Of a stretch of DNA of 60,512 nucleotides, positions 1 through 33,553 are shown piece after piece. The notes under the pieces are model-generated. The model did no database searches and had not been told where the DNA came from. It saw nothing but the letters and a program-made list of their open reading frames with translations. Location of the stretch: the NCBI GenBank assembly GCA_016935015.1, contig JAFGRT010000061.1:1-60512 (forward strand). The letters are read 5' to 3'. Every line of letters begins with the position of its first letter. The stretch's first letter is position 1. A program made the translations under genes and the position numbers. The DNA is from Acidobacteriota bacterium (GTDB taxonomy: Bacteria; Acidobacteriota; JAAYUB01).

Positions 1-93
1 CGGCGGACAGCGCCCGGGGCGATGGCGTGGGTTCAGCTTCCGCCCCAGCCGTTGTCCGGCCAGTTGCAGATGGCCGATGAGTCGCTTCATCAT
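1..93 (-). CDS. 5' end of an unidentified gene, cut by the window edge
   Basis: A reading frame opens at ATG 93 (a second ATG lies at 90) and stays open to base 1, giving about 31 codons that begin MMKRLIGHLQLAGQ and are rich in Arg and Lys. A GAGG lies directly before the first ATG, so the second ATG may be the better start. The frame begins 44 bases after the alpha-2-macroglobulin stop, on the same strand. In many bacteria a penicillin-binding protein 1C gene follows the alpha-2-macroglobulin gene, and a short basic cytoplasmic N-terminus would fit that. The visible part is too short to prove it, so the identity is only a guess from context. Confidence 0.35.
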   Translation of the reverse strand, partial: MMKRLIGHLQLAGQRLGRKLNPRHRPGRCPP

Positions 94-136: not shown

Positions 137-3100
137 TCATTCCTCCCGCGGCTGGATGCGGACGCGGGTGCCGTCCGAATGACCGTAGACCGATTGCTTG
201 TACATCATCTCCGCCCGGGCCGGCGGCTGGGTGAAACTGCCGGCGATGCTGGCCCGTACCCGGAAGTAGAAGTCATAGGTGCCCTTGGGCAGGGTGTCGA
301 AGTAGAAGGTCACCCGGTCGTCCAGGTACTGGGCGTAGGACGGCTGCAGGGTCGGGGCGCCGCTGGGCCGGGCCTCGGGCGGCGCCGTGGCCAGGTTGGG
401 GTTCAGCGGCTCGAAGCCGGCGGCCAGGGGCGCCTGGATGGCCACGTAGTGCCGGTCCGCGGCGTTGACCACCCGGATGTGCTCCTCCACCAGGGTGCCC
501 ATGGTCAGTTCGGTCTCCCGGCCGGCCTGGGCCAGGATCTTGTCCGGCGGTTGGCCGGCGGCGCCGTGGACGAGCATCTCCCGTTCCACGACGAAGCCCT
601 CGTTGGCCTGTCGGACCTGATCGCCGGTGCCGGCCGGCACGTAATCCACCCGCAACCAGGCCAGGGGTGGCTCCGCAGCACCCGATTCGGTGAGAGTGAC
701 CCGACCGGGGGCCGGCGAGGTGGTGCTGAACCGGCTGACCACCTGGCCGCTGGTGTCCATCTGCTGGCTGTCGGGACCGAAGCTGAACCGCAGCCGGGCG
801 CCCTGTCCCGGCGGGGCCGGAACGCCGAGCACCATGGCCAGGGCCCGCAGCGCCGCGGCGTTGGCATTGGTGTCGCCCCAGCCGTCGCCGGCGCCCAGGG
901 AGATCAGTTCGGTTACCAGCAGGCCGACCCGCGGATTCTCCGGCTCGGACCGGTGCAGGGCGCGGGTCACGCTGGCCAGGGTTTTGGTCTCGCTGGCCAG
1001 AATCAGTCCACCCCAGCTTTCGGCCCGGTACTGCAGGCCTTCATACACTTCCCGGCCGTCGCGCAGCTTGAAGACCATGCTGCGGATCAGGTCCTCCCGC
1101 AGGCGGCTGATCTCCCGGGCGAAGGCCGGCCCTTCCTCCTGAAAGGCGGACATGATCTGTGCCTCGCTGTAGAGATCCATGCTCGTGGCGCGGGCCAGCA
1201 GATCCTGGGCGTAGGCCTCGTCGAATTCGCCGGCCCGGGCCAGGGCGGCCAGGGCCTCGGCCCGTTCAACGAAAGAGAAGCCGTCGATGAAACCGCTGTA
1301 GTCGGAACGGAGGGACTCCTTGAGGGCATCGATGCCCCGGCTGAGCAGCTCTGGTTTGAAACGGTAGCCTTGGGCCTCGGCCTCCAGCAGGAATTCCACC
1401 ACGTAGGCTGTCAGGCTGACATAGGTGTTCGAGCCGGGCCAGGCGCTGAACAGGCCACTGTCATGCTGCGTCTTCTCCAGATAGGCGAACGTCTCCTCCA
1501 TCTGGCGCCGGCTGGCTTCCAGCCGTTGTGGGCGCCCGATGCGATCGAAGATGTCCTTGAGGGCCAATTCGGGGAACATCTGGCTGACGCGTTGCTCGGT
1601 GCAGCCGTGCTCGTAGCGGGCCAGGTAGTCGAGGGCGGCCAGCATCCGCAGCAGCGCCGGCTGGCCGGTCACCAGGGCGCTCTGCTGCACCGTGCCCGGG
1701 CGGGGCTCTTCCCGGGGAGCCGGAAACCGTGCTTCCTCCGCCGGCGCCAGGGTGACGAAGGTTTCCAGGTGACGGCGGCGCTTGTCCTCCTGCACGGGCA
1801 GGGTCACTTCGAAGGCGTCACTGGCACCATCGGACTGGCGCTCCACCGCCAGTCGGACCACCACCCGGTTGTCGTCGCCGGTGGCGGCCTCGGCGGGGAC
1901 GGACAGCGGGAAGAAGATGCGCTCCGGCTGATCCTTGACCCAGGTCAGGGACCGGCTGCGGTCGCCCGTCACGGTCAGCCCCTCCACCTGGAGTTCGGCG
2001 CAGCCGGGACCACCCTCGCCCTCCACCACCCGGCCGATGCCGCCGGCCAGGAACGTGTCGCCGGGTCGCACGAAGCGCGGCAGGGCCGACTGGACGATGA
2101 GTGGCAGGCGGACCGCCAGCATGGATTTCGCGGCACCGAAACGACCCCGGCCGTTGGTGGCCACCGCCCGCACGGCGAATTCCGTCAGGTTGTCGGGCAG
2201 CTTGATGGTGACCTCGGCCACGCCGCCCGTCACCGTCACCGCCGGATTGTAGTAGGGCACGGATTCGAACTGGCGTCGCACCGTCACCCGTCCGAAGAGG
2301 CCCGCCTCTTCGGCTTCGGCACCGTCGCCGCCGGCGATCTCATCCACCGACAGGTTGCCGACCACCTGGTTGCGGGTTTCGCGAAAACGCAGCATGGACT
2401 GCACCGGGTCGATGAAGGACGGCACCGGGTCCAGCGGCTTTTCCTTGCCCAGGGCCAGCACGGCCCGGTCCACCAGCCACAGGGTGACCTCGCCGTCCAG
2501 CGGCTGCCCCTCGGGCGAGGCCAGGCGGACGGTCATGGTGATGGTGGCGCCGGGCTGGCATTTCTCGGGATGTTCCAGGCGCACGTCCAACCGGTTGTCG
2601 CGGGGCTTGACGGTGATCCAGGTGGTGCTGGCCATAGCCTGGGGCTTGCCCCGGTCCTCCTTGCCCCGGGCCAGCGCGCCGGTGGTACCGGGCAGGCGGC
2701 CGCGCATCAGCAGTACATGCACTGGTACCTGGGGCGTCATGTCGCCGGTGATGGGCAGGGTGAACAGGCCCTGGCCGCCGGTGACATCCAGCCAGTGATA
2801 TTCATTGGCCGCTGGGCCCTCCACCACCACCAGGGCGCGGGCCTCCTGGAAGGGGCTCTTGAGGATCAGGGTGGCGGTGTCACCGGGGACGTAGTCTTTC
2901 TGGTCCAGTGACGTTTCGAACACGTTGGCCTTCGGCTTTTCCCAGGCGATGGGCGTCTCGCCGGCCATGTAGAGATCGGCGAAAACCTTTTGCAGGCGTC
3001 CCAGCCGGTCACGGGCGGAGATTTCCACCACGTAGACGCCGGACTCCGCCACCGGCAGGGGGATGGCTTGCGGCCCGTCGCCGGACACATGGTCGCTTTC

Positions 3101-5881
3101 AGCGATGATTTCGTCCACCACATCGGTGACGTATTTGGCCTTGCCCGTGGTGAAGTCGCTCTCGCGCAGGTAGGAGTGCCACTGGCGCTGCAGCAGGCGC
3201 ACATGAAATCCCTTGCCGGCCAGCGGCTTGTCGTCCGGCCCTACCACCAAGACCTCCGGGCTGATGGTGGTTGTGTCCTTGAGGAGGCGGGGCAGTTTCA
3301 GGCCCAGCACGAACGGCGGCAGGGCCAGGACCGACCGGGTGGCCGTGACGGTCTGCTCATCCGCTCCGCGGACCGTGGCCTCGGCCACGTAGCGCCGTGG
3401 CCGGGCGTCCTCTTCGGCGGTGGGATCGATTTCCAGCCGGGCCGAGCCGTTCTCGTCGGTGACGTCCATGACGTCGATGCTGCCGGTGGACTGGAAGGAG
3501 CGTCCTTCGCTGAAGCGTTCGTCGGAGGAAAAGATGAAGCCCGGATAATCCGGAATCTGGTGACGGTAGGGGAATTGGGTCACCTGCCAGTTGATTTCCT
3601 GGCCGACCACCCGGCCGCCGGCATAATAATCGGCCGTCAGGGTCAGGGTGAACGGCTGGTCCAGCGGGGTCCGGTCGGGGCCGGCGATATGCACCTCAAA
3701 GCGGGGGATTCGATAGGCCTCCTTGCGGAAATCCACCTGGGCCAGGTCATAGCCCTCGGTTTCATCACGGATGGCGGCGAAGAACGTACCCGTGGGCAGA
3801 TCCGCCTCGTCGAACTTCACGTAGAAGCTGCCGGCGGCCGTCAGGGTTACAGGATAAGTAAAGCGCAAGCCGCCCGGCCCTTCCACGATGACGCTGCGCG
3901 GCCGGTCCGGATCGGGCGACAGGATTTTCCCCTGCCGCCGCTGCCGGACGTAGCCCTTGATGTGAACCGGCTCCTCGGGCCGATAGACCGGCCGCTCGGT
4001 GAAGATGTGCGCCTTGCGCACCGCGGCTTCCTTGCTGTTCTCCGGTTCCAGGTTGAGCCAGCTCAGCCAGGTGGAGTACGAACCGTACCAGTGATTGTCC
4101 ATGAAGTGGGGCGGCGGCTCGTCGGGATCGAGCACCAGCACGTCGTCCCCCTTGCGGACGGCGATGCGGACCAGCCGGTGGCGAATGCGCTGGGTGTGCC
4201 GGTAACGGTAACGGCCCGCCGCATCGGTGGTGCCGGTGATCACCGTTTCCCACTGGTTGTTGCGCTCGCCGTCGATGCGGATCTCGGCGCCCGACACGGG
4301 CTGGCCGGTCTGCAGCGAGGTAACGACGAAGGTGACGGCCGATTCTTCCTCCACTGTGCTGAGGCTGAGATCCGTGACCTGGATGCGCACGAAGTGGCGG
4401 TACGTGTCTGTACCGATGGAGCGGTAGCCCACCAGGTAGTGGCCGGGGCGGTCCGCGCCGGAAATGGCGGCCAGATGGGCTTTCAGGTTTAGGCCGAAGG
4501 TGATCTGGCCCTGTTCGGTGCGCATGGGCAGGGGCTCCAGCCGGGAGACCAGGGGGCTGCCCAGCAGCCGGATCTGTTCGGCCATGGCCGTGGCGTAGGC
4601 CGGCTCCTCGCCAGGACCCGGCGGCCGTTCGCTCTCGTCCACCATCACCGGTTCCAGGGGAAAGGGCCAGAAATTGCGGCTGAGGGGATCGATTTTGTGG
4701 AGACGCAGATCCAGTTGCTCTTCGCCGCGCCCTTCCATGGGGAACATCTGCGGGCCGTAACGCTCCACGATCCCCTGGCTGCCGAGCCATCTCAGGTAGG
4801 GCTCGGCCTGGCGGTAGAAAAAGTAGAGGGACGTCTCGCCCGGCGGCTGCATCTCCCGACCTTCCAAATTGCGCAGGCCGGCGGACTCCAGGCGCAGCCG
4901 GTACACGTCATCGCGCCGCGCCGCGAAGTGAAGCAAAAGCCGGTCACCGTTGGCCTCGAAACGGAAGTCGTCCACCGCCGGCAGAAAATGGATCAGGCGT
5001 TTCAACTGTTCCAGGGATACCGGCCCCAGGTTGTCGCTGAATTGCAGAAAGATCGGTTCCCGGCCGGTACCGCAGTCCAGGGCCTGTTCGCGGGAATAGA
5101 CGCTGCCGCGGACGGCCACCGGATAGACGGCGGCGCCGCAGCCGATGCCCGTCAGGCGGAAAACGGGCTTGGTCTTGAAGGTGTACCGCACCAGGGCGCC
5201 CCGGATCCGGTCGTCCAGGGACAGGCGCAGGTGCAGCCGGCAGACCTTGCCGTGGGGGATGGCCTGGCGGAAGGTGATCTGGTACTGCGCCGGTTCGTCC
5301 AGGGAGGGGCGTTCCAGTGGCTTGACCACGAAATCGCGGTCGGTCAGCCAGTAGCCTTCGCCCTCGCCGGCGCCGGGCAGGGGTTGTACCTGGAAGGTTA
5401 CCATCCGGGCCAGCCGTTCGGTATCCACGGGATCGGCGAAGGACAGGTTGACATCCCGGATGGGATCCAGCCCTTCGCTGCCCGGGGCCGGTTGTACCTG
5501 CCGCGGCGGATGCATGAAGGTGACCAGGGTGATCCGCGCGCCCGCCGTAACCACGGTGAAGCGGTCCAGAGCCGGCCAGGGAGTGGTGGGCAGGAACTGA
5601 AGGGTGCGGGCGTCCACCCAGCGGTATTCGCCGGGATGGGCCGGGCTCAGGCGGAACAGGTCCCCCGGCTGGTCCAGGGGGCCGCCGCCCGCGGGGCCGC
5701 GGTCATCGGGAAAGAAGATGGTGATGGGGTCATAGCCGCGGAGGAACGTATCGGGCACGATACTGATCGCGCTCTTCCCCAGGGTGTGGTCGATGCCGCG
5801 TTCCTGGGCCGCACTCCACGAAACCGGTCCGGCCAGCAGGAGACAGAGGCTGATGAGCAGGGTGGTGGTGCGGCTGTTCAT
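137..5881 (-). CDS. Bacterial alpha-2-macroglobulin with thioester motif
   Basis: This 1914-residue exported protein is a bacterial alpha-2-macroglobulin, a family that traps attacking proteases through a reactive internal thioester. The N-terminus is a signal peptide (hydrophobic core LLISLCLLLAGP, likely cut after SAAQ) with no lipobox Cys, so it is probably periplasmic rather than lipid-anchored. A macroglobulin MG2-type motif (RPVYRPEEPVHIKG) lies near residue 632, and the family-typical LPDNLTEFAVRAVA near residue 1235. The thioester motif GCTEQ has Cys1427 and Gln1430, followed by the complement-like helical domain. It is longer than the usual 1500-1650 residues; an extra carboxypeptidase-regulatory-like module lies near residue 530. 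Its ATG overlaps the stop of the upstream giant gene by 4 bases (ATGA), so the two are translationally coupled. Confidence 0.93.
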   Translation of the reverse strand: MNSRTTTLLISLCLLLAGPVSWSAAQERGIDHTLGKSAISIVPDTFLRGYDPITIFFPDDRGPAGGGPLDQPGDLFRLSPAHPGEYRWVDARTLQFLPTTPWPALDRFTVVTAGARITLVTFMHPPRQVQPAPGSEGLDPIRDVNLSFADPVDTERLARMVTFQVQPLPGAGEGEGYWLTDRDFVVKPLERPSLDEPAQYQITFRQAIPHGKVCRLHLRLSLDDRIRGALVRYTFKTKPVFRLTGIGCGAAVYPVAVRGSVYSREQALDCGTGREPIFLQFSDNLGPVSLEQLKRLIHFLPAVDDFRFEANGDRLLLHFAARRDDVYRLRLESAGLRNLEGREMQPPGETSLYFFYRQAEPYLRWLGSQGIVERYGPQMFPMEGRGEEQLDLRLHKIDPLSRNFWPFPLEPVMVDESERPPGPGEEPAYATAMAEQIRLLGSPLVSRLEPLPMRTEQGQITFGLNLKAHLAAISGADRPGHYLVGYRSIGTDTYRHFVRIQVTDLSLSTVEEESAVTFVVTSLQTGQPVSGAEIRIDGERNNQWETVITGTTDAAGRYRYRHTQRIRHRLVRIAVRKGDDVLVLDPDEPPPHFMDNHWYGSYSTWLSWLNLEPENSKEAAVRKAHIFTERPVYRPEEPVHIKGYVRQRRQGKILSPDPDRPRSVIVEGPGGLRFTYPVTLTAAGSFYVKFDEADLPTGTFFAAIRDETEGYDLAQVDFRKEAYRIPRFEVHIAGPDRTPLDQPFTLTLTADYYAGGRVVGQEINWQVTQFPYRHQIPDYPGFIFSSDERFSEGRSFQSTGSIDVMDVTDENGSARLEIDPTAEEDARPRRYVAEATVRGADEQTVTATRSVLALPPFVLGLKLPRLLKDTTTISPEVLVVGPDDKPLAGKGFHVRLLQRQWHSYLRESDFTTGKAKYVTDVVDEIIAESDHVSGDGPQAIPLPVAESGVYVVEISARDRLGRLQKVFADLYMAGETPIAWEKPKANVFETSLDQKDYVPGDTATLILKSPFQEARALVVVEGPAANEYHWLDVTGGQGLFTLPITGDMTPQVPVHVLLMRGRLPGTTGALARGKEDRGKPQAMASTTWITVKPRDNRLDVRLEHPEKCQPGATITMTVRLASPEGQPLDGEVTLWLVDRAVLALGKEKPLDPVPSFIDPVQSMLRFRETRNQVVGNLSVDEIAGGDGAEAEEAGLFGRVTVRRQFESVPYYNPAVTVTGGVAEVTIKLPDNLTEFAVRAVATNGRGRFGAAKSMLAVRLPLIVQSALPRFVRPGDTFLAGGIGRVVEGEGGPGCAELQVEGLTVTGDRSRSLTWVKDQPERIFFPLSVPAEAATGDDNRVVVRLAVERQSDGASDAFEVTLPVQEDKRRRHLETFVTLAPAEEARFPAPREEPRPGTVQQSALVTGQPALLRMLAALDYLARYEHGCTEQRVSQMFPELALKDIFDRIGRPQRLEASRRQMEETFAYLEKTQHDSGLFSAWPGSNTYVSLTAYVVEFLLEAEAQGYRFKPELLSRGIDALKESLRSDYSGFIDGFSFVERAEALAALARAGEFDEAYAQDLLARATSMDLYSEAQIMSAFQEEGPAFAREISRLREDLIRSMVFKLRDGREVYEGLQYRAESWGGLILASETKTLASVTRALHRSEPENPRVGLLVTELISLGAGDGWGDTNANAAALRALAMVLGVPAPPGQGARLRFSFGPDSQQMDTSGQVVSRFSTTSPAPGRVTLTESGAAEPPLAWLRVDYVPAGTGDQVRQANEGFVVEREMLVHGAAGQPPDKILAQAGRETELTMGTLVEEHIRVVNAADRHYVAIQAPLAAGFEPLNPNLATAPPEARPSGAPTLQPSYAQYLDDRVTFYFDTLPKGTYDFYFRVRASIAGSFTQPPARAEMMYKQSVYGHSDGTRVRIQPREE

Positions 5882-8800
5882 TGGCGTTCCTCCTTCAGGT
5901 ATTTTTCCAATACGTCATCGGGGATACCCTGACGGCTGCCGGTTGTGCCCAGCACCACCGGCCGGTACTGCACCGGGGCGTCGCCGCCGGCCACCAGCAG
6001 CAGGTAGTCGCCGGGCGGGAGCTTCCGGAACATCAGCGGACCCCGGGCCATGACCCGGTTGTCCATGTCCGTCAGCCAGGCCGTGAGGCGGTCGGTGTCG
6101 GTGCGGATGCCGGCGCCGACATTGCCCGCCACCGTCACCGTGAAGGTGTAAGCCTGAATTTCGCCGGGCCGGATGAGCCGGACCGGGGCTTCCTCGCCGG
6201 GGGGCAGCATCTCGGGTTCCAGATGCGTACAGCGCAGGACGCCGGTCCGGGACTGTCCGGCCAGGGGGCGGGCGCCCAGCCGGTACGTGCCGGCTGGCAG
6301 CCGTCGGACCAGGTGACGGTCGGCAAAGGTGCTGGCCGCCCGCAGGTCGAGGACGGCGGCGCCGTCTTGGAGGCTGATCACCCCGGGCGCGTCGGTGACT
6401 GCGGCCACCAGTCGCGGCGCCGCCAGGGTCAATGTCCAGGCCTGGGGTTCGTTCTGCAGCATGAGGAGGCCGGGCGTGAGCGGGACGGGCACCGTTTCGG
6501 CCTTCCCGGCCGCCAAACGGCAGGCGGGCCGATCCGCCGCGTCCATCCAGACGCTGATCAGCCCCGGGCCGTGGCGGATTTCCAGAATCCCCGGCGCCGC
6601 ATCGAACGTGGCGATCCAGGGTCGCTCCCGCACCGCGCGCGGCTCGCGCAGCCGGCCGTCGGCACCCCACAACCGGGCGGAAAGGTCCTCGCCGGTGATG
6701 TACAGCCGCTGACCGGCCGGCAGAGCGGGCACGTCAGCCTGCAGAGTTCCGGCCCTCGAAGCCACGGTTTCGTAGCCGTTGTCGGGCGTGATCCGCACGG
6801 CCTCCGGCCGCGGGGCCGGGATCTTTTCGGCCCTGAACAGGGCCGGGGCGGCGGCGGTGTTGAGAATCGTCAACAAACCGCCATTGGTGTTGAGCAGGCG
6901 TTCGCCGTTTTCCTCAAGGCAGGCGACCAGGCCCTGCGGATCGTCGCCCTGCCAGGCATAGGCCATCATGCCGCGGCCCATGGACAGCCGCAGTGACTGC
7001 GGCGAGTCGGGCAGGGTCAGCAGCAGGGAACGGCCGGGAGGGATCTCCTGCTCCAGCGATGCGATCTGGCGGAAATCGCGCTGCCCCAGGGGCGGGTAGG
7101 ACGTCAGGCGCAGGGTCACCCGTTCGCTGCCCGACTCGCGCATGCCCGCCGAATGGATCACGAGCCGGTCCCCGGTGGACCACAACCGGGCCTGGTAGCT
7201 CCCCTTGCCGGGGATACCGAAGAAAGTGCCGGCCGGCTGGGCCAGCATGCCGGCCCAGCGGTATTCCTCCGGTGGTGGCTGGCCGGCCGGGTAGGCGCTG
7301 ATGCCCACCGGACGGCCGACGGTTTCCGCCCGGAGCAGCAAGGGCGCGTCCAGATCCTGCTCCAGCGCGCCGTGCAGGGGCATGTCGCCCAGCAGGACCG
7401 TAACCGGTCTTTCCCGACCGATCACGAAGGGCTCCAGCCGGACGTCGGCGGAGTCCGGCGCCACCAACCAGCCGCCGTCGGCGGCCAGGGCCACCGGCTC
7501 TCCCTGGAGGGGCAGACACGGTCGCTCCAGGGACGGGGCGAAGAACAGCTCCGTCCCCTCGGCCAGGCAGCGCCAGCTCAACCCGGCGGTGTCCCGCAGC
7601 CGGGCGGCCGTCAGGGCAGGTTCCAAGCGGCTTTCGCCCGTCAGGTTGATGGTGCGGAAATCGAGGGGCGCGGCGGCGATCTCCGCTGTGCCACCGGCGG
7701 ACTGCCAGGCCAGCAGCGTGTATTCGGCGTCGGCGGCCAGGGGGACGATCAGCCGATCCTCCCCTTCGGCCAGCAGGCGCCCCTGGCGGTAGAGGGCCAG
7801 TCCGGTGCGGCCGGCGCTGCCGGTGAAACGCACCAGCCCTTTCTGGCGGGCGGTGAACGGGATTTTCAGCACCGTTTGCGCCAGGTCTTCCCGGACCGCA
7901 AACGGCACACTTTGAGTAGAGAGGGACTTTTCCGGCCGTTCATCCATGTTCACGGCGAACGGTTGCACATCCGGGCCCACGGCCACCAGTTTCAGTTGAT
8001 ATTTCCCCGGCGGGAGACGCCGGGAGATCAGGAAATTCCAGTCATCGGCCCGGTCGTCGTTCCAGGCCAGCAGTTCGGTCAGGTTCTCGTCCCAGAGATA
8101 GGCCTTGACGTCGGTCCGGCCGAAACTGGCGATGTCCTGCAGCGCCTCACGGCTGACACTGACCCGCAGGGTGTACGGCAGCTCCGGCACCTGCTGGGAC
8201 ACACCGGGAATGAGGTCCTCGGTGGTCATCCGGAGGGTATAGGGTACCCGGTTGTTCTCCTCGACGCTGCGGACCTCGATCCGATAGTCACCGGCGGCCA
8301 GCACGCCCTCGGCGAAACCGTCGCGCACCGTCATGGCGTCGGCTCCGTCCGGACCGCGGAGAGTCGCTGTGAGGGTCGGTTTCAGGTACACGTAGACCTT
8401 GGCTTCGGCCGTCATCGCCAGGGTGTAGACATCGGGCGGCCGGCCCGGCTGCTCCAGCCAAATGTTGTCCAGGGGCTGGTTGAGAATCAGGGGATGCGGC
8501 CCCTTGCCGCGGATTTTTTCCGGTTCCGTCACTCGCTGCAAGGTGACCACCCGGCGGCTGTCCACTGGTTCCGGCAGGGAAAAATAGTGGTATTTGCCGG
8601 GTTCCAGCTCCAGGGTGATGGGCCCGACCTCATCCGTGGGGAGGATTGGCCAGCCGTCGGCGTCCTCCAGCCGCCGGGCAAACGTCTTGCCCAGGCCGAA
8701 AGTATCCAGGTGATACGTGCCCGGGTCCGCCAGGGCGAAAGGCAGGCGGATGGCGCCGTCGGCCGGTACGCTCCGGCGGATGACGCTGCCCGGTGCCAGT

Positions 8801-11028
8801 CCGGAGACCTCCGCCAGAGAGGTGCGCCGCAGGTGAATGCCGGCCCGGCCGGCGCTGTTGCCCCGCACCTGGACGGACACCAGGTATTCACCCGGCCGGA
8901 AGTATTGCTGCACCAGCGCGTTCCGGCCGATACCGTTTTCGGTGGCGGCGAATAGCGTGGTGGTCAGGCGGGTCCGCACCCGGATCTGGGTGGCCAGGCG
9001 GCCGCTGGTTTCCAGTCGGTAGAGGCCGGCTTCCGTGACCCGCAGGAGGTAAAATTTGGCCTGTCCGCGGGCGAAATCGACGAAGACGGGATCATCCTCC
9101 GTCAAAATCTTCAGGAGTGCGGCCCAGTCCTGCAGCTGGGGCGGGGGCGGCGGCACCAGCGAGACGGCATTGGCCCGGATGTTGAACAGGGCGGTGCTCG
9201 TGCCTGTATTTCGAAGCGTCACCTGGTAACGGCCGGGGGTGACCAGATTCTTCAGATTGTGGGGGGCTTCATTCAGACGCAGCTCGAACGAGCCGCCCGT
9301 CACGTCCAGCAGCGAGTTTTCGGCCACCGTGGCCGGAAAGGCAACCTCTTCGCCCGGATGAAGCGTTACCGGTAACGGTTCCGTCAGATCGACGGGCAGG
9401 GACCGGACCAGAAGGCCCGACTCCACGCCCGGGCGCTGGTTCAGCCAGACGGTGTAATAATTGGCCGAGCGATCCAGCGTCACCTGTGGCCAGTGGATGC
9501 TCTGCCGCTGCGGTCCAATCGTGGCGGCCGACGCTGCCCAGTCCATGGCGCCGGCTTCGTCTTTGAGGCGCAGGTCGAAGTGCAGGATGCCCGTCGAACG
9601 GGGATTCATGGCCAGCACGTAGTAGCCGCGGGTGAGTTCCAGCTCGCTGCCGGCCGGGACAAACGGCGGCGGACGGTAGCCGCGCGGTCGCGAGACCATG
9701 AACGGCGCCGCCTGATATTCGGCCGTGGCTCCGGCGGCCGGGTTTTCCTCGATGACATAGGTGCCGGTGGTCTCGACGAACAGAAAGACGCTGGCCGCGT
9801 TGAGCAGGTTGACGCGGCGGATCAGGGGGGCACCGGCGCCGACATTGAGGGTGCTGGCTTCCAGGGGAGTTTTGCTGTCCGAGGCAATGAGGAGGGCGGT
9901 GGCGTCGACGGCATCCCGCCCGGCGGCGGAGTGGATGCTGGAAATCCAGAACTGGTTGGGCTTGTCAGGTAGCTGATGGCGGTCCTGCTGGACGAAATAG
10001 TCCAGTTCCAGGGTGTCGCCGGGCGCGGCCGTGACGATGATCCAGTGCCGGTTACTGCCGTAGTTTGTATAGAGGCTGCACCAGGGATCACGGGATTCCT
10101 TGGTGATTTCCGTGGTTTCACCGTAACCGAACCGGCTGTCCTTCTCCGACCAGTAACGGACCTGCAGCGTCGTCGCTTTCTTGTCCGGGCGCACCAGCTG
10201 GAAATAATTGGTGTCCCGTCCCACCAGGAACGCATCCCGGCCGAACGGGGACATGGTGAACAGGCGTTGCCCGTTTTCACCGAGGAAAGGTACTCCCCAG
10301 CGCAGGTAAAGGGAATGGGCGCCCGTGTTCTGGGTCCAGTCGGCGGCCGGGCCGCCGTAACAGGTCAGCAGATAGAGTCCGGGATTGAGATCATGGTGGA
10401 ATTCCAGGTACTGCATGGGCTGTCCGGCCACGGGCTCGAATACGCTGGCGGTGGGACGGACGTCGGCCAGCCAGGCTCCGTCCTGCCAGAGCCGGCAGTC
10501 CCGCAGGTTGCGGCCCATGATCTCGAGCCGGAGGGTCTGGCGCTGCTCGATATGGATCCACCAGGAACGCTGCTCGAGGTCGTCCATGGCCGACTCCACC
10601 ACCTGCCGCGACGGCAGAAAGGGCAGATCACGGATATCGGCGGCATCATGCATCTCCCGAAAGGGGGCGACCGTGGCCGTGACCTCGCCGCTCCCCTTCT
10701 TGTGCGAATGCAGGCGCAGCTTGTAGGTGCCCTTGTCCAGCAGCAGATCGAGGCGGCCGTCCGTTTCACCTGCCGTGCCGTCGGCAGCGAAGGGACCGGC
10801 CATGCGGTCGAGGATTTCCAGCCGGGTTCCCTGGCCGCTCTGGACCTGGATGCTGTAGCGGCCCGCCTGATGGACGTGGAGCAATGTGTCGTTCGTCCCC
10901 CGGGCCTCGAAGACGGCTTGGGCCAATTCGGCGGGGGGGCTCGACGGGTCCGCCGACGGGAATATGACACCCGGCCACGCTGCCATTCCCAGAATCAGGA
11001 TGATGAGACGCCTGGTCCATGCTGACAT
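5878..11028 (-). CDS. Giant secreted protein of unknown function, coupled to alpha-2-macroglobulin
   Basis: I do not recognise a family for this 1716-residue protein. It begins with a signal-anchor-like segment (RRLIILILGMAAWPGVIF) and has no further strong membrane segment, so it is probably exported. The body consists of repeated beta-rich stretches that end in motifs such as LPPGKYQLKLV, LEPGKYHYFSLP and FRPGEYLVSVQV. This pattern resembles pre-peptidase C-terminal (PPC) or other beta-sandwich modules. No catalytic motif is visible. The start at 11028 is chosen because GAGGAGG lies about 8 bases upstream; an open frame continues to 11658, but that part is Arg/Pro/His-rich noise. The gene overlaps the alpha-2-macroglobulin gene by 4 bases, which suggests that the two products act together at the cell envelope. 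A scaffold or partner role is inference. Confidence 0.8.
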   Translation of the reverse strand: MSAWTRRLIILILGMAAWPGVIFPSADPSSPPAELAQAVFEARGTNDTLLHVHQAGRYSIQVQSGQGTRLEILDRMAGPFAADGTAGETDGRLDLLLDKGTYKLRLHSHKKGSGEVTATVAPFREMHDAADIRDLPFLPSRQVVESAMDDLEQRSWWIHIEQRQTLRLEIMGRNLRDCRLWQDGAWLADVRPTASVFEPVAGQPMQYLEFHHDLNPGLYLLTCYGGPAADWTQNTGAHSLYLRWGVPFLGENGQRLFTMSPFGRDAFLVGRDTNYFQLVRPDKKATTLQVRYWSEKDSRFGYGETTEITKESRDPWCSLYTNYGSNRHWIIVTAAPGDTLELDYFVQQDRHQLPDKPNQFWISSIHSAAGRDAVDATALLIASDSKTPLEASTLNVGAGAPLIRRVNLLNAASVFLFVETTGTYVIEENPAAGATAEYQAAPFMVSRPRGYRPPPFVPAGSELELTRGYYVLAMNPRSTGILHFDLRLKDEAGAMDWAASAATIGPQRQSIHWPQVTLDRSANYYTVWLNQRPGVESGLLVRSLPVDLTEPLPVTLHPGEEVAFPATVAENSLLDVTGGSFELRLNEAPHNLKNLVTPGRYQVTLRNTGTSTALFNIRANAVSLVPPPPPQLQDWAALLKILTEDDPVFVDFARGQAKFYLLRVTEAGLYRLETSGRLATQIRVRTRLTTTLFAATENGIGRNALVQQYFRPGEYLVSVQVRGNSAGRAGIHLRRTSLAEVSGLAPGSVIRRSVPADGAIRLPFALADPGTYHLDTFGLGKTFARRLEDADGWPILPTDEVGPITLELEPGKYHYFSLPEPVDSRRVVTLQRVTEPEKIRGKGPHPLILNQPLDNIWLEQPGRPPDVYTLAMTAEAKVYVYLKPTLTATLRGPDGADAMTVRDGFAEGVLAAGDYRIEVRSVEENNRVPYTLRMTTEDLIPGVSQQVPELPYTLRVSVSREALQDIASFGRTDVKAYLWDENLTELLAWNDDRADDWNFLISRRLPPGKYQLKLVAVGPDVQPFAVNMDERPEKSLSTQSVPFAVREDLAQTVLKIPFTARQKGLVRFTGSAGRTGLALYRQGRLLAEGEDRLIVPLAADAEYTLLAWQSAGGTAEIAAAPLDFRTINLTGESRLEPALTAARLRDTAGLSWRCLAEGTELFFAPSLERPCLPLQGEPVALAADGGWLVAPDSADVRLEPFVIGRERPVTVLLGDMPLHGALEQDLDAPLLLRAETVGRPVGISAYPAGQPPPEEYRWAGMLAQPAGTFFGIPGKGSYQARLWSTGDRLVIHSAGMRESGSERVTLRLTSYPPLGQRDFRQIASLEQEIPPGRSLLLTLPDSPQSLRLSMGRGMMAYAWQGDDPQGLVACLEENGERLLNTNGGLLTILNTAAAPALFRAEKIPAPRPEAVRITPDNGYETVASRAGTLQADVPALPAGQRLYITGEDLSARLWGADGRLREPRAVRERPWIATFDAAPGILEIRHGPGLISVWMDAADRPACRLAAGKAETVPVPLTPGLLMLQNEPQAWTLTLAAPRLVAAVTDAPGVISLQDGAAVLDLRAASTFADRHLVRRLPAGTYRLGARPLAGQSRTGVLRCTHLEPEMLPPGEEAPVRLIRPGEIQAYTFTVTVAGNVGAGIRTDTDRLTAWLTDMDNRVMARGPLMFRKLPPGDYLLLVAGGDAPVQYRPVVLGTTGSRQGIPDDVLEKYLKEERQ

Positions 11029-11342
11029 ACCCTGTCCTCCTCTTTTTACGATCCGGGCCCGGCTACTGAACCGTATCGGCGACTGCGTTCGGAAGACCGG
11101 ATCCGGGGATGGTCGACAGAAAAGATGACTGATAATGTGTATATTACCATGGTTGGTTTCCGCTGCCCAAAGGATTTCACTGGGGCAGCCGCGGATGAGA
11201 GATTCTGACGGATTGGACCCCTGACATGGCGCAGAGTTCCTGGAGGGGGCACGACCGCGCCACACCCGCTCATGATCGGGTGGTGGTGTGCGGCGGACGG
11301 TCGATCGACCATCCCGCCCGGACAGCGTGCGCCGCCACGGGG
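11029..11342. other. Intergenic region upstream of the giant secreted gene
   Basis: No gene is supported in these 314 bases. The half near the giant gene (about 11110-11160) is unusually AT-rich and probably holds its minus-strand promoter. The best pair is TTGGGC, then 18 bases, then TAATAT, which is weak. A perfect 12-base palindrome, GGTCGATCGACC, lies at 11299-11310 and could be an operator or chance. Confidence 0.4.
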
Positions 11343-12584
11343 TCAGGGGGCGTGGGTGGCCTCGGCAGAGAATTCTCCCCGCTGCAAGAGGGCCATGAGA
11401 CGGCTTACCAGCAGGGCGAAACCGTTGGTGTCGATGGCCTCGCTGGTGTGATTGACGGTAGCGGCCAGGGCGTACGCTGGTCCGTCCGCCGCCGGCTGCA
11501 GCAGGTGGGTGAAATTGAGTACGCCCGGCTCCGAACCTCCCTTGTAACCGATGCGATGCCACTGGGCGGGATTGGCCAGGCCTGTATTGATGGCCAGGGA
11601 TGGGTCGTCCCGCAGGGAGTGGATCAGCCGGCACAGCTCCCGGGTGGAGATGTGCCATTCGATCTCGTCCACCATGACCGGGCTGCCGTCATAGGCGATC
11701 TTGTTCAGAGGGAAATCCTGCAGCTTTTCCAGCAGCTGGCGTCGCCCCGCGAGATCGGCGGCGGCGTAGCGCTGTCGGGTGTCCGCTTCGACGCCCCACT
11801 TCAGGACGAACATCTCGCGCGTGGAAAGGAACGGGCGCAACCGCTGCGGGGCATGGGCCTCCACCCGCTCACGGCCGAGCAGAAACAGCAGATGATCGGT
11901 GGCGGTATTGTCACTGATGCTGATCATCAGGTTGGCCAGGGTGCGCAGTGTCAGCGGGCTGTCGGCGGGCCAGTTCTGCAGGATGCCCGACGGCAGGGAC
12001 ACCCGGTCGGCCCGCAACGGCACCACCTGGTCCCAGCGCATTTTTCCGGCCCGCACCTGATCGGCTGCCGACTGCAGAACGTACAGCTTGAACGCCGACC
12101 CGACGGCCAGGGGCAGGTCGCTGTTCAGCGAGAAAAGCGTTTGGCCGTCGTCGCGGACCAGGGTAACGGAAACCTGGCCCGGTATTCGGCTGAATTCCTC
12201 GCGCAGGCTGGTCGGCGAGTCGTCAAAGAGCGTCCAGTGTCCGAACCAGAGTCCGACAATCTGGCGCTGTTGGTTGAGAGTGATGCGGCACGGAGTTTTC
12301 CCCTTGGTAAACACCAGCTCGTAGTTCCCGCTGGAACCCACGATCTGCTCCAGGTCACCCAACGCGCCGCGGTAGGTGTCGAGGATCTGTTTCATCTGTG
12401 GTTCCGGCACCTGTTCCAGGAAGGACGGGTGGAAGAAACGTCCCAGGTCATGGGCATCCGGGGCGAACAACTTGAGGAGGACGGCTTTTTCGGCGTCGCC
12501 GGCCGGATCCAGATCCGTCGCCGGTGTGCCGACAGGCAGGATGAGCAGACACAGGAGGCCGGCCAAGCTCAGTCTGAAAGGCAT
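11343..12584 (-). CDS. Class A beta-lactamase-fold serine hydrolase, exported
   Basis: This 413-residue protein has a signal peptide (LSLAGLLCLLILPVGTPA) and a C-terminal class A beta-lactamase-like domain. The three hallmark motifs are visible: SAFK with nucleophile Ser163 and Lys166, SDN in LMISISDNTATDHL, and KGG in GYKGGSEPG in place of KTG. Residues about 25-120 form a separate N-terminal domain resembling DUF3887-type beta-lactamase-associated domains. The family includes true beta-lactamases, but also many peptidases and esterases of the same fold; resistance cannot be claimed, as no typical Glu166 omega loop is obvious to me. AAAGGAGAT precedes the ATG. The gene lies upstream of the giant protein and alpha-2-macroglobulin genes on the same strand, separated by 314 bases. 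Confidence 0.85.
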   Translation of the reverse strand: MPFRLSLAGLLCLLILPVGTPATDLDPAGDAEKAVLLKLFAPDAHDLGRFFHPSFLEQVPEPQMKQILDTYRGALGDLEQIVGSSGNYELVFTKGKTPCRITLNQQRQIVGLWFGHWTLFDDSPTSLREEFSRIPGQVSVTLVRDDGQTLFSLNSDLPLAVGSAFKLYVLQSAADQVRAGKMRWDQVVPLRADRVSLPSGILQNWPADSPLTLRTLANLMISISDNTATDHLLFLLGRERVEAHAPQRLRPFLSTREMFVLKWGVEADTRQRYAAADLAGRRQLLEKLQDFPLNKIAYDGSPVMVDEIEWHISTRELCRLIHSLRDDPSLAINTGLANPAQWHRIGYKGGSEPGVLNFTHLLQPAADGPAYALAATVNHTSEAIDTNGFALLVSRLMALLQRGEFSAEATHAP

Positions 12585-12812
12585 AGTATCTCCTTTGGCG
12601 GATTATTTTCTTTTTTCAGTACGCGTCAGTCGTGGCGTTATTCGGGCCGCGGCTGACAATTTCGGCTCACCGGTGCCGCCGGGATCGGCGACGAGGCCGG
12701 CGACGGCGGATTATACGACCGGTGGCCCCGCACATGGCATTGATCCGGACGGCCTCGAGATGGTATGCTGATGCCGAACACTCCATATTATATGCCACCG
12801 GAGGCAAAGGCC

Positions 12813-13370
12813 ATGGAAAAATTCATACCCCGGCGAGGACGGACCGCCTTGTTGGTCATCGACGTCCAGGAACGCCTGGCGGCGGTGCTGGATCAGGCGT
12901 GGCTGCGCAACGTCGTGGTCAATATCCAGCGCATGCTGCAAGGGATGGAGGTTCTGGGGTGCCCGGCCATCCTGACGGAGCAATACCCCCGCGGCCTGGG
13001 GGCGACGGTGGCGGATTTGCAGCTCTTCCGGCAGAACATGCCGGTCATGGAAAAGATGGCCTTCAGCTGTTGCCGCGACTTGCCGCTGGTGGCTGACCTG
13101 CAGCGTCGGGACGCGGAGTATGTGCTGCTCACCGGCATGGAAACCCATGTCTGTGTGTTGCAGACCGCTTTGGATCTGCTGGCGGCAGGACGGCGGGTGC
13201 ATGTCCTCCAGGACGCCGTTATCAGCCGTACCCGCGACAACTGGCGCGCCGGCCTGGAGCTGATGCGGGATGCCGGCGCCGTCATCAGCACGACGGAAAT
13301 CGCCCTTTTCCAGCTGCAGGAGACCTCCGGGACGGCGTCCTTCAAACAGATCTCGAAACTGGTGAAATGA
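12813..13370 (+). CDS. Isochorismatase-family cysteine hydrolase
   Basis: The 185-residue protein matches the isochorismatase-like hydrolase fold (a YcaC-like or nicotinamidase-like group). The expected catalytic triad is visible: Asp17 in LLVIDVQERL, Lys81 in VMEKMAFSC and Cys114 in METHVCVLQ. Family members hydrolyse isochorismate, nicotinamide or other amides, and the substrate cannot be told from sequence. The start at 12813 is chosen because GGAGG lies 8 bases upstream; the frame is open further upstream without better support. The protein is cytoplasmic, with no signal peptide. It is transcribed divergently from the beta-lactamase-fold gene and ends 37 bases before the convergent Memo gene. 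A short GCCGG-AAGA-CCGGC hairpin lies between the two convergent stops. Confidence 0.85.
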   Translation: MEKFIPRRGRTALLVIDVQERLAAVLDQAWLRNVVVNIQRMLQGMEVLGCPAILTEQYPRGLGATVADLQLFRQNMPVMEKMAFSCCRDLPLVADLQRRDAEYVLLTGMETHVCVLQTALDLLAAGRRVHVLQDAVISRTRDNWRAGLELMRDAGAVISTTEIALFQLQETSGTASFKQISKLVK

Positions 13371-13407
13371 TCATCGGCGCGGTCGGCACCCCGGCCGGAA
13401 GACCGGC

Positions 13408-14214
13408 TCAGACGAAATAGAGGCTGGCGTAGCCCACAACACTGGAATAATCACCTGAAACATCCCCCGAAGTGGCGTAGCGGACCAGCTCCCCCCGCGT
13501 GGCCCCCAGCTGACGGCAGGCCTGCATGACGGCCACGGCCGCCGCATATCCGCACATGGAGATGCTCTCCCGGTTCACCACCTCATGCAGCCCTTCGGGA
13601 TTCAGCGCCTTCATTTCGGCGATGGCCAGGGAGTCCTTCTTGCGGGAGATCTCATCCGGCTCGAAATGACTCATGTCGGAGCTGGCCACCAGCAGGACCG
13701 GTTCCCCGCTCCGGTGGACGGTATCGGCCAGGGCGTCGCCCAGTTCCAGCAGAATGGGCAAGCGGCCGGTACCGAGACAGATGGGCACGAATGTCAGGTC
13801 GGGCTGCAGATAGCGGAGAAAGGGGAGGTGCACCTCCAGCGAATGCTCGCGGGAATGGGCCAGGGCATCGAATTTCAGGTCGGGAAAGCGTTCCTGTAGG
13901 GCATAGGCCGTTTCCTCGTCCAGCGGGACTTCACCCAGGGGTGTCTCCCAGGATCCCTCCCCCATGAAGGCCAGTGTGGCACCCAGCCCGGAGTGGTTTG
14001 GGCACAGGATGATCACCCGGCGGGGAATGCGCACGGCGGCATACACTTCACCCGCGACGGCCCCCGAATAGATATAGCCGGCATGCGGCGCCACCACTCC
14101 CTTGACCTCTATTTTCTCGGAAACATCCGGAACAAATCGTTGCAGATCCCGTTCCAGGGCTGCGGCGGAGGCCGGATAAAACGTGCCGGCGACGGCGGTT
14201 CTTCGAATGTGCAT
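13408..14214 (-). CDS. amrB: Memo family protein (AmmeMemoRadiSam system protein B)
   Basis: The 268-residue protein matches the MEMO1 family: HIRRTAVAGTFYP at the start, VVAPHAGYIYSGAVAG, the metal-site HSLEVHLPFL, LLVASSDMSHFEP, and SMCGYAAAVAVM near the end. The fold is dioxygenase-like and the bacterial function is not settled. In many genomes it sits with an AMMECR1 protein and a radical SAM enzyme, neither of which is in this window. The start at 14214 has GGAGAGGAGGA about 5 bases upstream; the frame runs on to 14475, but that part is basic noise. A good minus-strand promoter lies at 14330-14358. Confidence 0.88.
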   Translation of the reverse strand: MHIRRTAVAGTFYPASAAALERDLQRFVPDVSEKIEVKGVVAPHAGYIYSGAVAGEVYAAVRIPRRVIILCPNHSGLGATLAFMGEGSWETPLGEVPLDEETAYALQERFPDLKFDALAHSREHSLEVHLPFLRYLQPDLTFVPICLGTGRLPILLELGDALADTVHRSGEPVLLVASSDMSHFEPDEISRKKDSLAIAEMKALNPEGLHEVVNRESISMCGYAAAVAVMQACRQLGATRGELVRYATSGDVSGDYSSVVGYASLYFV

Positions 14215-14524
14215 CTTGTCCTCCTCTCCCCTGCTCGACTGAAGAGTGTTTCCGGAGACGGCCGTCGGGACGGGCGGTGGCGCCGTCTGCCGGAATACAA
14301 TCAAATCTGCCGGAATAGATCCCGTGATCATTATAACCCGTTTGCCGCCGGGCGACAATGCCTGATTCAAGCGCCGGATCCGGCGATGAACGGGGCGTGG
14401 ATCCGCGGCCGGTCGGCCGGTTATTTTCCGTGCAATAAGGTGTGGATTTTTTTTATAAAATATCGTAAAATACAACGTTTATTGCAAGTTAATCCGTGGA
14501 TGAAACCACTGTGGAGTTATGGGT
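14215..14524. other. Divergent control region between the Memo gene and gyrA
   Basis: These 310 bases hold the Memo promoter and, next to gyrA, a strikingly AT-rich stretch (about 14450-14482) with a T8 run that probably contains the gyrA promoter. An exact 8-base inverted repeat, TGCAATAA (14431-14438) and TTATTGCA (14479-14486), brackets that stretch. It may be an operator or a topology-sensitive promoter element; this is inference. Confidence 0.5.
14330..14358 (-). promoter_or_regulatory. Promoter of the Memo-family gene
   Basis: On the minus strand TTGTCG (14353-14358) and a consensus TATAAT (14330-14335) are spaced by 17 bases. Transcription would begin near 14323, giving a leader of about 110 bases before the Memo start. 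Confidence 0.65.
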
Positions 14525-16976
<2,452 letters not shown>

Positions 16977-17849: not shown

Positions 17850-18185
17850 ATGATGCCCGAAAAGAAAAACATCCCCATGAAGTTGGTCTACCCCCAGGGC
17901 AGAGAAAAGATTAGATTTGTCAACCATTTCCTGTTCTCCCAGATCGAAATGGACGTCGTTCTGGATATCGGGGTTGTGGACCCCCGCAAGGTGATGGAGA
18001 TCAATCACAAGATTCAGCAAGGGCTGCTCGAGCCGGAGGAACATCTGGAATCGGTGGTCATCCAGCGTCTGGGTATGAGCATCAGCTCCTTCATGAAGCT
18101 GAAGCACCAGATCGACCAGATCTTCAACAGTCTCGAAAAGCAGGGTGTGCTGGTTAAAAAACAGGGGAGTATAACGACGCAGTAG
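17850..18185 (+). CDS. Small DUF3467-like protein
   Basis: The 111-residue protein is cytoplasmic, with no signal peptide or membrane segment. The segment IRFVNHFLFSQIEMDVVLDIG resembles the core of DUF3467 proteins (a short beta-rich domain of unknown function), and the C-terminal half is helical (FMKLKHQIDQIFNSLEKQG). The match is from memory of the family pattern and is tentative. AAGGA sits just upstream of the ATG; a second ATG immediately follows. It lies 27 bases after the TPR gene, in the gyrA transcription unit. Confidence 0.7.
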   Translation: MMPEKKNIPMKLVYPQGREKIRFVNHFLFSQIEMDVVLDIGVVDPRKVMEINHKIQQGLLEPEEHLESVVIQRLGMSISSFMKLKHQIDQIFNSLEKQGVLVKKQGSITTQ

Positions 18186-18244
18186 CCTGCGGACCGCGCG
18201 GCCGGGTGGTGACTACAACTCGACCCCGACCGCAGCGGAGGGGA

Positions 18245-18280
18245 GGGGAAAGGTGCGGCGGCACGGTGTTGCCTTTCCCC
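18245..18280 (+). terminator. Stem-loop between the DUF3467-like and DUF4388 genes
   Basis: GGGGAAAGG (18245-18253) pairs perfectly with CCTTTCCCC (18272-18280), and a smaller GTGC/GCAC stem lies within the loop. The hairpin is strong but is followed by GTTCGAATCTTT rather than a clean T run, so it may be a weak terminator, an attenuator or an RNA-stabilising element. Confidence 0.35.
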
Positions 18281-18314
18281 GTTCGAATCTTTGCACTCTC
18301 AGGGAGAGCTTCCT

Positions 18315-19427
18315 ATGCTGCTAAAAGGTAGTCTGAAAGTTACCACCCTTCCCGAAATTCTTCATTCCATCTGTATCAGCAAAGAGACAGGAATTCTCAC
18401 CCTCCAGCAATTCAACGTCAAGAAAAAGATTTACTTCGAAGAGGGAAAAATCGCTTTCGCCTATTCCAACCAGCGGAAGGATTCGCTGGGCGATGTGCTG
18501 TTGCGCAGCGGGACCATCGCCCTGGAGATGTACCTGAAAACGGCCGATCAGATACGTCCCGGTCTGCGTCACGGCCAGATCCTGCTGCGCGAGAAGGTCA
18601 TCACGACTCAGCAGCTGATCACGGCCGTGCACAGTCAGGTCCAGGATATCATCTTTTCGCTGTTTCACTGGGTGGAAGGCACGTTTGAGTTCGAGAAGGA
18701 AGAGAAGAACAAGGAAACCATCAAGCTGAACATCTCCTCGTCGGACCTGATCCTGTCCGGCGTCAAGCGGATTACTGACTGGTCCATCATTTCCAAGATG
18801 ATCGGTGCCATCGACAACGTCATGGAAGAATCGCCCGAGTTTGAAACCAAACTGAGCGAAATCCAGCTGGATGATCAGGAAAACGACATCGTGAAATACG
18901 CCGTCGGCCGGTCCATCGAGGACGTGCTGGGCTACAGCCTGCTCAACGATTACGAGACCTGCCGATTGCTGGCCGGTTTCATCACCATCGATCTGTTCCG
19001 GATCCGCAAGTCCCAATTCTTTATCCTGGAGCCCGTCACGGATATCGACACCGACAAACTGAAGCGCATGGCCGACCTGTTCAACAACATCTATCGGCAC
19101 ATCCAGTCCACACTCCGCAACAGCGCCGGGCCGATGGCCGAAAAGATTCTCAAGAACTACTACATGGAAGTACGCCAGACGGAAAAAGAACTCCTCAAGA
19201 ATGTGGAGATGAAGGACGACGGCGCCCTGGACAGCGATCTGCTGGATCTCAACCTGATGAACCTGGAGATGGAAAACAAAACCGAACGGGTCTATCAGAT
19301 GTACTTGAAGGTTCTCAGTTCACTGCTGAAGGCAGCCCGGGAGCTGCTGGGTGGTGATGAGATGTCCCGCCTGGATCAGGAAATCAAGGAACTTGTGGAA
19401 CGGATGTCCGCGACGACGGAGGAATGA
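18315..19427 (+). CDS. DUF4388 (PATAN-type) domain protein
   Basis: The 370-residue protein begins with a DUF4388/PatA N-terminal-like domain: LKGSLKVTTLPEILHSI, ETGILTL, KKIYFEEGKIAFAYSN, and GDVLLRSG. A further region resembles a helical output (VITTQQLITAVHSQVQDIIFSLFHWVEGTFEF). The last 120 residues are charged and probably coiled. Such proteins are common in Acidobacteriota and myxobacteria and are thought to join regulatory or motility networks; no exact function is known. The start at 18315 has AGGGAGAG about 6 bases upstream; the frame opens 24 bases earlier without a good site. Confidence 0.78.
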   Translation: MLLKGSLKVTTLPEILHSICISKETGILTLQQFNVKKKIYFEEGKIAFAYSNQRKDSLGDVLLRSGTIALEMYLKTADQIRPGLRHGQILLREKVITTQQLITAVHSQVQDIIFSLFHWVEGTFEFEKEEKNKETIKLNISSSDLILSGVKRITDWSIISKMIGAIDNVMEESPEFETKLSEIQLDDQENDIVKYAVGRSIEDVLGYSLLNDYETCRLLAGFITIDLFRIRKSQFFILEPVTDIDTDKLKRMADLFNNIYRHIQSTLRNSAGPMAEKILKNYYMEVRQTEKELLKNVEMKDDGALDSDLLDLNLMNLEMENKTERVYQMYLKVLSSLLKAARELLGGDEMSRLDQEIKELVERMSATTEE

Positions 19428-19457
19428 CGGCCGGCACGGCCGGCGGTCTTCCCTCCC

Positions 19458-32600: not shown

Positions 32601-33553
32601 AGGTTGTTTTCGTAGTCCACCAGCAATTTGGAGATGTCGATGTTTTCCAGGCCGTTCTGTTCGGCCAACCGGCGGAAGGAACCGTCGGGCCGCTCCATGA
32701 ACAGGCCGTTGCTGGAACTGATCCAGGTGACACCCGTCCGGTCGCGTGCAGCACAATGCAATTCCAGCGGTTCCGGCGATGGATACATATCGTGACTGGA
32801 TTCGCCGGCGGCATCTACCACCGTCAATCGTCCCGGACGGGTGAGCAGCAACTCACCCGTCCGCCGATCCAGGAAGATATCCCGCACCAGATCATTGGCG
32901 CGTCGGTTCAGGTGAGACAGCGGGATGAACCGGTCCTGGCGCCGGACACATAATCCCTGATCGGTTCCCAGATACAGATCGCCAGAGGGGTGCGGATGCA
33001 GGGCGTAAATGACGTTGCCGGCCAGGCCCTCCGTGGACGTAAAGTGACTTTCCTCGTACTGGGTGAGGCGAAACAGGCCGTTGTCCGTGGCCACGAGCAT
33101 GGCCCCGTCGGCGTCCTCGACCAGGGCGTAAACCTTGGGTTGGTTCTTGACGCTTTTCAGGCGTCGCGGCACGAAACGGCCGTTTTTCAGCAGGGCGACG
33201 CCCTGGTAAGTGCCCACCCATATCTGGCCGGTGTGGTCCTCGCTGATGGCCTGGATATAGGAAGAGGGAAGACCGTCCTTCATGGAATAATTCTGGCAGG
33301 CATATCCGTCGTAGCAGGAAATGCCACCCAGGGTGCCGATCCAGATCCGTCCGGCCTGGTCCTGGTAGAGGCAGTTGGGCTGATTCTGGACCAGGCCGTC
33401 CCGGACGGTGTAGTTGCGCAGGAGGAAGGAGCCTTCGGCGTGATGGTCGGCCCGCAGGCCGGGCAGCCCACCGCACGCGATCAGCAGGAGCACCGCCAGA
33501 ATCCAGCGATGACCCGGTTGCCGGTCGATCTCAGAAGGTGATGATTTCCGCAT
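29672..33553 (-). CDS. Beta-propeller (Reg_prop) hybrid histidine kinase
   Basis: The 1293-residue protein has an HTCS-like sensor layout. A signal or membrane segment ([14 protein letters not shown]) comes first, then a two-component-regulator propeller array (about residues 50-640; repeats such as [15 protein letters not shown] and [14 protein letters not shown]). A Y_Y_Y-type beta domain follows near 671, a transmembrane helix near 735-755 and a PAS domain near 785-890. HisKA follows with His922 in [11 protein letters not shown], then HATPase with DTGPGIP near 1081, and a C-terminal receiver with Asp1223 in [12 protein letters not shown]. It senses a periplasmic ligand, often a glycan in Bacteroidetes relatives, and ends in a receiver without a DNA-binding domain. 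The start lies 22 bases inside the end of thiI; GGAAG lies about 9 bases upstream. Confidence 0.92.

Follow-up and report, generated by a model that had tools for sequence, protein, structure and literature searches.

A type I alpha-2-macroglobulin (A2M) encoded beside PBP1c has been proposed to act with it as a periplasmic defence pair, in which a protease trap is combined with wall repair (PMC5764988, PMC3328433). Such pairs, for example yfhM-pbpC of E. coli and the locus of SaA2M in Salmonella, consist of a thioester (CxEQ) A2M that is usually followed by PbpC, and both the function of bacterial type I A2Ms and their cooperation with PBP1c have been open questions since the gene pair was noticed. 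Type II A2Ms lack the thioester and are encoded with five other genes in the mag operon of Pseudomonas aeruginosa and the yfa operon of E. coli; in the mag operon, MagA, MagB, and MagF bind the A2M (PMC5764988). In archaea, A2M homologues near large beta-domain surface proteins are described in the excerpted text of a study of the VARTIG module of Thermococcales (PMC8416519), and those neighbourhoods are variable; the same excerpts mention neither PbpC nor the protein family reported here.

The locus analysed here resembles the first of these systems in its thioester A2M, which in relatives is usually followed by PbpC, and the second in that the A2M is encoded with a further exported protein. 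However, it differs from the type I pair by an extra gene of ~1700 residues upstream and by an A2M that falls in a separate, fully supported branch, and from the mag and yfa operons by having a thioester and a single, giant partner. A search of open-licence papers found no description of the giant gene, which would appear to be a third, overlooked component of a suspected system that protects the bacterial envelope. A third gene whose presence coincides exactly with that of one A2M branch would offer a direct biochemical handle on the A2M/PBP1c question, and a widespread family of ~1700-residue proteins, mostly annotated as hypothetical, gains an identity linked to function.

Layout of the locus

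The window, i.e., the whole stretch of DNA that was analysed, is one entire contig of 60,512 bases, and the contig ends 136 bases past the A2M stop codon. The features of the locus are as follows:

5878..11028, minus strand: first gene of the unit, encoding the giant exported protein (1716 residues plus stop; translation) with predicted tandem PPC-like beta-sandwich domains
137..5881, minus strand: second gene, encoding an exported type I (thioester) A2M of 1914 residues (Pfam domains, PDB sequence matches, tree)
1592..1606, minus strand: GCTEQ thioester motif of the A2M, residues 1426-1430 (sequence)
5878..5881, minus strand: ATGA overlap, 4 bases shared by the stop codon (TGA) of the giant gene and the start of the A2M gene; translational coupling
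5889..5894, minus strand: AGGAGG, Shine-Dalgarno-like site for the A2M, within the last codons of the giant gene and 7 nt before the A2M ATG
11036..11041, minus strand: AGGAGG, Shine-Dalgarno-like site for the giant gene, ahead of the ATG at 11028
1..93, minus strand: possible third gene, start only, basic (MMKRLIGHLQLAGQRLGRKLNPRHRPGRCPP...), running off the contig end

An earlier reading of the sequence alone had described a 1716-residue exported protein whose gene overlaps the A2M gene by 4 bases. Both the coordinates and the length proved right, the N-terminus (MSAWTRRLIILILGMAAWPGVIFPSA) is a signal-peptide-like segment in translation, and the ATGA at 5878-5881 is served by a Shine-Dalgarno site inside the giant gene. 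The reading frame of the giant is open up to 11658, upstream of the chosen ATG; since AGGAGG precedes the ATG at 11028, the start at that position is nevertheless supported.

Upstream of the giant gene and on the same strand, positions 11343-12584 (minus) encode an exported protein that carries a DUF3887-like domain and a Beta-lactamase2 (PF13354) domain. This gene was considered as a member of the unit and rejected, since genes of this kind do not recur beside other giants. Elsewhere the window encodes a hybrid histidine kinase that includes a two-component-regulator propeller (29672-33694, minus) and a tricorn-like protease with PDZ_Tricorn and S41 domains (56337-59615, plus).

Co-occurrence of the giant gene with one branch of A2Ms

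Within the Acidobacteriota, the giant was found in only three other genomes among 99 related ones, each time directly upstream of an A2M that is 45-51% identical to the A2M of the window; other A2Ms in the same genomes are about 22-30% identical to it over long stretches. A profile of the giant gave long matches in 19 of 396 genomes of the phylum, and a profile of the giant-linked A2M picked out the identical 19 genomes with scores above 2300 bits, the next best score being 588. The hypergeometric probability of this co-occurrence is 8e-33. All of the phylum loci with downstream sequence left run on into an A2M gene, and most then into PbpC. Since the unit is missing from relatives in the window's own family and order, its distribution is patchy.

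Named genomes were surveyed with one conserved peptide pattern taken from an alignment of 18 giants, patterns made from the window protein alone having been too specific to give any match. The survey, which was a sample rather than an exhaustive count and drew many of its loci from metagenome-assembled genomes, found 112 relatives, and 80 loci were kept. These loci were found by the giant alone; 70 have an A2M gene directly downstream on the same strand, nine are cut by a contig end inside or just past the giant gene, and one is without an A2M. The sequence-only reading had posed the question of whether homologues always lie beside a thioester A2M or mostly far from one, and the answer was clear: a thioester-type A2M adjoins the giant in 70 of the 71 testable loci, all but one, and the arrangement is not a matter of chance. 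A 4-base overlap of the two genes is possible in 31 of the 70 loci. The loci belong to Acidobacteriota, Alpha- and Gammaproteobacteria, Thermodesulfobacteriota, Myxococcota, Nitrospirota, Elusimicrobiota, Fibrobacterota, Spirochaetota, and Eisenbacteria, and the giant family is thus widespread, with members in at least nine bacterial phyla. When the ORFs of all neighbourhoods were clustered, no other gene family recurred around the unit across lineages.

The sole giant with room downstream (8 kb) yet no A2M lies at 9908-14806 of locus L128, which carries a second, partial giant of 532 residues at 18080-19678. The unit of "Mycobacterium sp. KBS0706" (L130, NZ_VCCH02000083.1) nests among Alphaproteobacteria in the A2M tree, and this genome is probably misnamed.

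In a maximum-likelihood tree of 72 A2Ms, built by a quick search and with long branches for some rows outside the giant-linked group, the 48 giant-linked A2Ms lie on one side of a single branch (SH-aLRT 100) and the 24 without a giant lie on the other. Two genomes, G010 and G025, contain A2Ms of both kinds. Several A2Ms of the giant-less side adjoin PbpC with no giant; therefore, a two-gene A2M-PbpC unit also exists, sometimes in the same genome (G010). Pairwise identities among giants and among their A2Ms are correlated at r=0.96, a value in which the shared species tree remains, and the best of 999 shuffles reached 0.17. In nearly all pairs the A2M is more conserved than the giant (median 42% vs. 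30%).

Such tracking of distances is what any co-inherited genes would show, including the genes of an old operon that were kept together by common descent only, with no functional partnership. That explanation is scarcely credible, however, considering that the two genes are adjacent in at least nine phyla despite a patchy distribution, that their presence and absence are identical across the 396 genomes, and that no other gene has been kept with them. The giant and its A2M almost certainly belong to a conserved functional unit.

The A2M, PbpC, and the three-gene unit

The A2M of the window gave Pfam matches above cut-off to bMG10, A2M_BRD, MG2, A2M, and bMG3, and its PDB sequence matches are the bacterial A2Ms 4u48 and 4rtd. 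Judged by these domains and its motif, it is a type I A2M, having macroglobulin and bait-region domains; the CxEQ motif, whose absence marks type II, is present. Across 16 giant-linked A2Ms, C1427, E1429, and Q1430 are invariant. In the wider set, where the thioester cysteine was scored on a TED-only profile, it is retained in 41 of the 48 giant-linked A2Ms. The seven that have lost it come from Rhizobium (GSTEQ), Plastoroseomonas, Roseococcus, and the loci L120 and L123, and the losses took place inside this type I branch. Since seven of the 48 lack the cysteine, the pair can persist without covalent trapping. The cysteine-less A2Ms (L131, L139, and L145, with GSTEQ; L146, L169, L120, and L123) keep the giant-A2M order intact, most with PbpC.

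The pairing had been thought distinct from loci with PbpC, and this view found no support, as in most relatives with enough contig the A2M is adjoined by PbpC (Transgly, Transpeptidase, and BiPBP_C domains). Among the 80 named loci, PbpC follows the A2M in at least 52. It is not adjacent to the giant-A2M pair in L098, where it lies upstream of the giant, or in L099, L116, L121, and L123, and is therefore a looser member of the unit. In the genome of the window, neither a BiPBP_C domain nor a PbpC was found when each was searched for; the window contig ends 136 bases after the A2M, and we read this negative result as a contig-end problem that does not prove the gene to be absent. A basic ORF (MMKRLIGHLQLAGQRLGRKLN...) runs from base 93 on the minus strand, past the A2M stop, off the contig, and the position and basic composition of this candidate would fit the cytoplasmic start of a PbpC.

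From gene content and order, the unit is giant-A2M-PbpC, in which the known type I A2M-PbpC pair is extended by a third gene and not replaced. Our main reading is that this three-gene unit is a variant of the type I A2M-PBP1c pair to which a large, obligate partner has been added, with the giant acting as a scaffold, and we give this reading as a whole a probability of roughly 0.55.

Two further observations concern individual loci. A Nitrospiria genome carries a second, distantly related A2M (L127:1042-6993) ~3 kb upstream of its giant-A2M-PbpC unit. PbpC is split into two ORFs in one Aminicenantes record (L081, 14577-17042), and A2M is split likewise in another, closely related one (L083, 5290-11062), possibly by sequencing errors.

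Architecture and possible roles of the giant protein

The giant had been described as a protein of no recognised family built from PPC-like beta segments, and both parts of that description stood up. Searched against Pfam and NCBIfam, the window giant matched no family above cut-off. Comparison of its profile with itself revealed homologous internal repeats (e.g., ~650-745, 745-840, 880-1050, and 1590-1690) at up to 97% probability. PPC (PF04151) matches several members of the family below its cut-off of 25.9 bits, and no Pfam match to it was found in the window giant itself. The protein was modelled with AlphaFold2 in two halves, with 62 sequences each, and both models were confident (residues 36-868, pLDDT 91.7 and pTM 0.85; residues 836-1716, pLDDT 89.1 and pTM 0.76) and almost wholly beta, with only a few short helices. 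In Foldseek the halves resemble beta-sandwich arrays: the collagen-binding domains of ColG rank top for the N-half and second for the C-half, and 5iku was matched at a probability of 1.00 by both, with TM-scores that are low because the domain arrangements differ. A PDB sequence search with a profile of the N-half gave no match. The models thus depict the giant as an all-beta series of tandem sandwiches resembling PPC and collagenase-binding domains, and its length would accommodate about fifteen domains of ~105 residues. Its predicted folds match s3a/s3b of the clostridial collagenase ColG; unlike the collagenases, it carries no peptidase and is a long series of tandem domains, and its sequence stays under the Pfam cut-off. 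Weak matches of the giant profile in family f46 and in other genomes covered one PPC-like domain of 60-70 residues only and were set aside as unrelated proteins.

The sequence-only reading had offered the giant as a scaffold or a second protease trap in an undescribed envelope unit. Of these, the scaffold is compatible with the all-beta tandem models and a conserved envelope unit is a fair reading, but the trap is not borne out. That the giant is itself a second trap, or presents a bait in the manner of A2M and complement, would agree with its position beside an A2M and with its weak structural similarity in Foldseek to A2ML1, ECAM, and proteins of complement. Nevertheless, the A2M fold was matched at TM-scores near 0.07, typical of any beta-sandwich array, and no A2M, TED, or macroglobulin (MG) Pfam match was found in 27 members. 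Since the models have almost no helix, the giant cannot hold the all-helical thioester domain, and we consider this explanation very improbable.

We somewhat favour the giant as a physical scaffold or partner of the A2M. Since partners encoded in the mag operon bind and stabilise a type II A2M (PMC5764988), a scaffold role would, by analogy, be the most economical guess. We infer that the periplasm is the destination of the exported giant and that its approximately fifteen PPC-like beta-sandwich domains would make up an extended scaffold there, to which the co-translated A2M binds. The A2M would covalently trap intruding proteases via its bait region and thioester, and the giant would keep it close to peptidoglycan and to PBP1c, the synthase responsible for peptidoglycan repair. 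The unit would come into play on a breach of the envelope, e.g., by proteases and cell-wall hydrolases of a host, predator, or competitor, and envelope protection is its probable purpose. PADLOC gave no match at this locus, and phage defence is not suggested.

The signal peptide by itself leaves the final location of the giant unfixed, and tandem PPC or collagen-binding-like beta domains are common in secreted proteins. The giant might accordingly be a surface or adhesive protein that the A2M shields, or one that displays the A2M outside the cell. We find this unlikely, since neither a C-terminal sorting signal nor an anchor or outer-membrane domain was recognised in the giant, no second membrane-like segment was found near the C-terminus among 80 giants, and its partner PbpC is active at the inner membrane.

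In about 17 alphaproteobacterial loci, many of them from Rhizobium and some plasmid-borne, the giant is fused to an N-terminal LprI (PF07007) domain, the domain of M. tuberculosis LprI and Salmonella ScwA. These fusions, the fact that PbpC is a peptidoglycan synthase, and the often ligand-binding nature of PPC-type domains would suit a giant that inhibits or senses cell-wall hydrolases: its beta domains would bind peptidoglycan or lysozyme-like enzymes, the A2M would handle proteases, and PbpC would repair the wall, in parallel and with no complex. This alternative is doubtful, however. By Pfam, LprI is absent from the window giant and most family members, no catalytic or known carbohydrate-binding Pfam family was found in the giants (the window giant and 27 members), and co-occurrence is exact with the A2M and looser with PbpC, which points to the A2M as the true partner. 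Furthermore, the LprI domain of ScwA does not inhibit lysozyme (PMC7933661); therefore, the fusions would link the unit to the cell wall and its enzymes in general terms only.

The scaffold reading can be extended, tentatively, to one in which the giant is the obligate core subunit of an undescribed periplasmic A2M complex of at least nine diderm phyla. Its beta-domain scaffold might there couple protease capture, peptidoglycan repair, and, via fusions such as LprI, control of cell-wall hydrolases; the complex would then be the bacterial equivalent of a complement-like envelope response that involves several proteins.

The LprI-fused giants include those of L131, L133, L139-L145, L103, L136, L148, L169, and others. 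On Rhizobium plasmids, the giant is annotated as "hypothetical protein" or "lysozyme inhibitor LprI family protein" and is followed by an "MG2 domain-containing protein" and then a "transglycosylase domain-containing protein".
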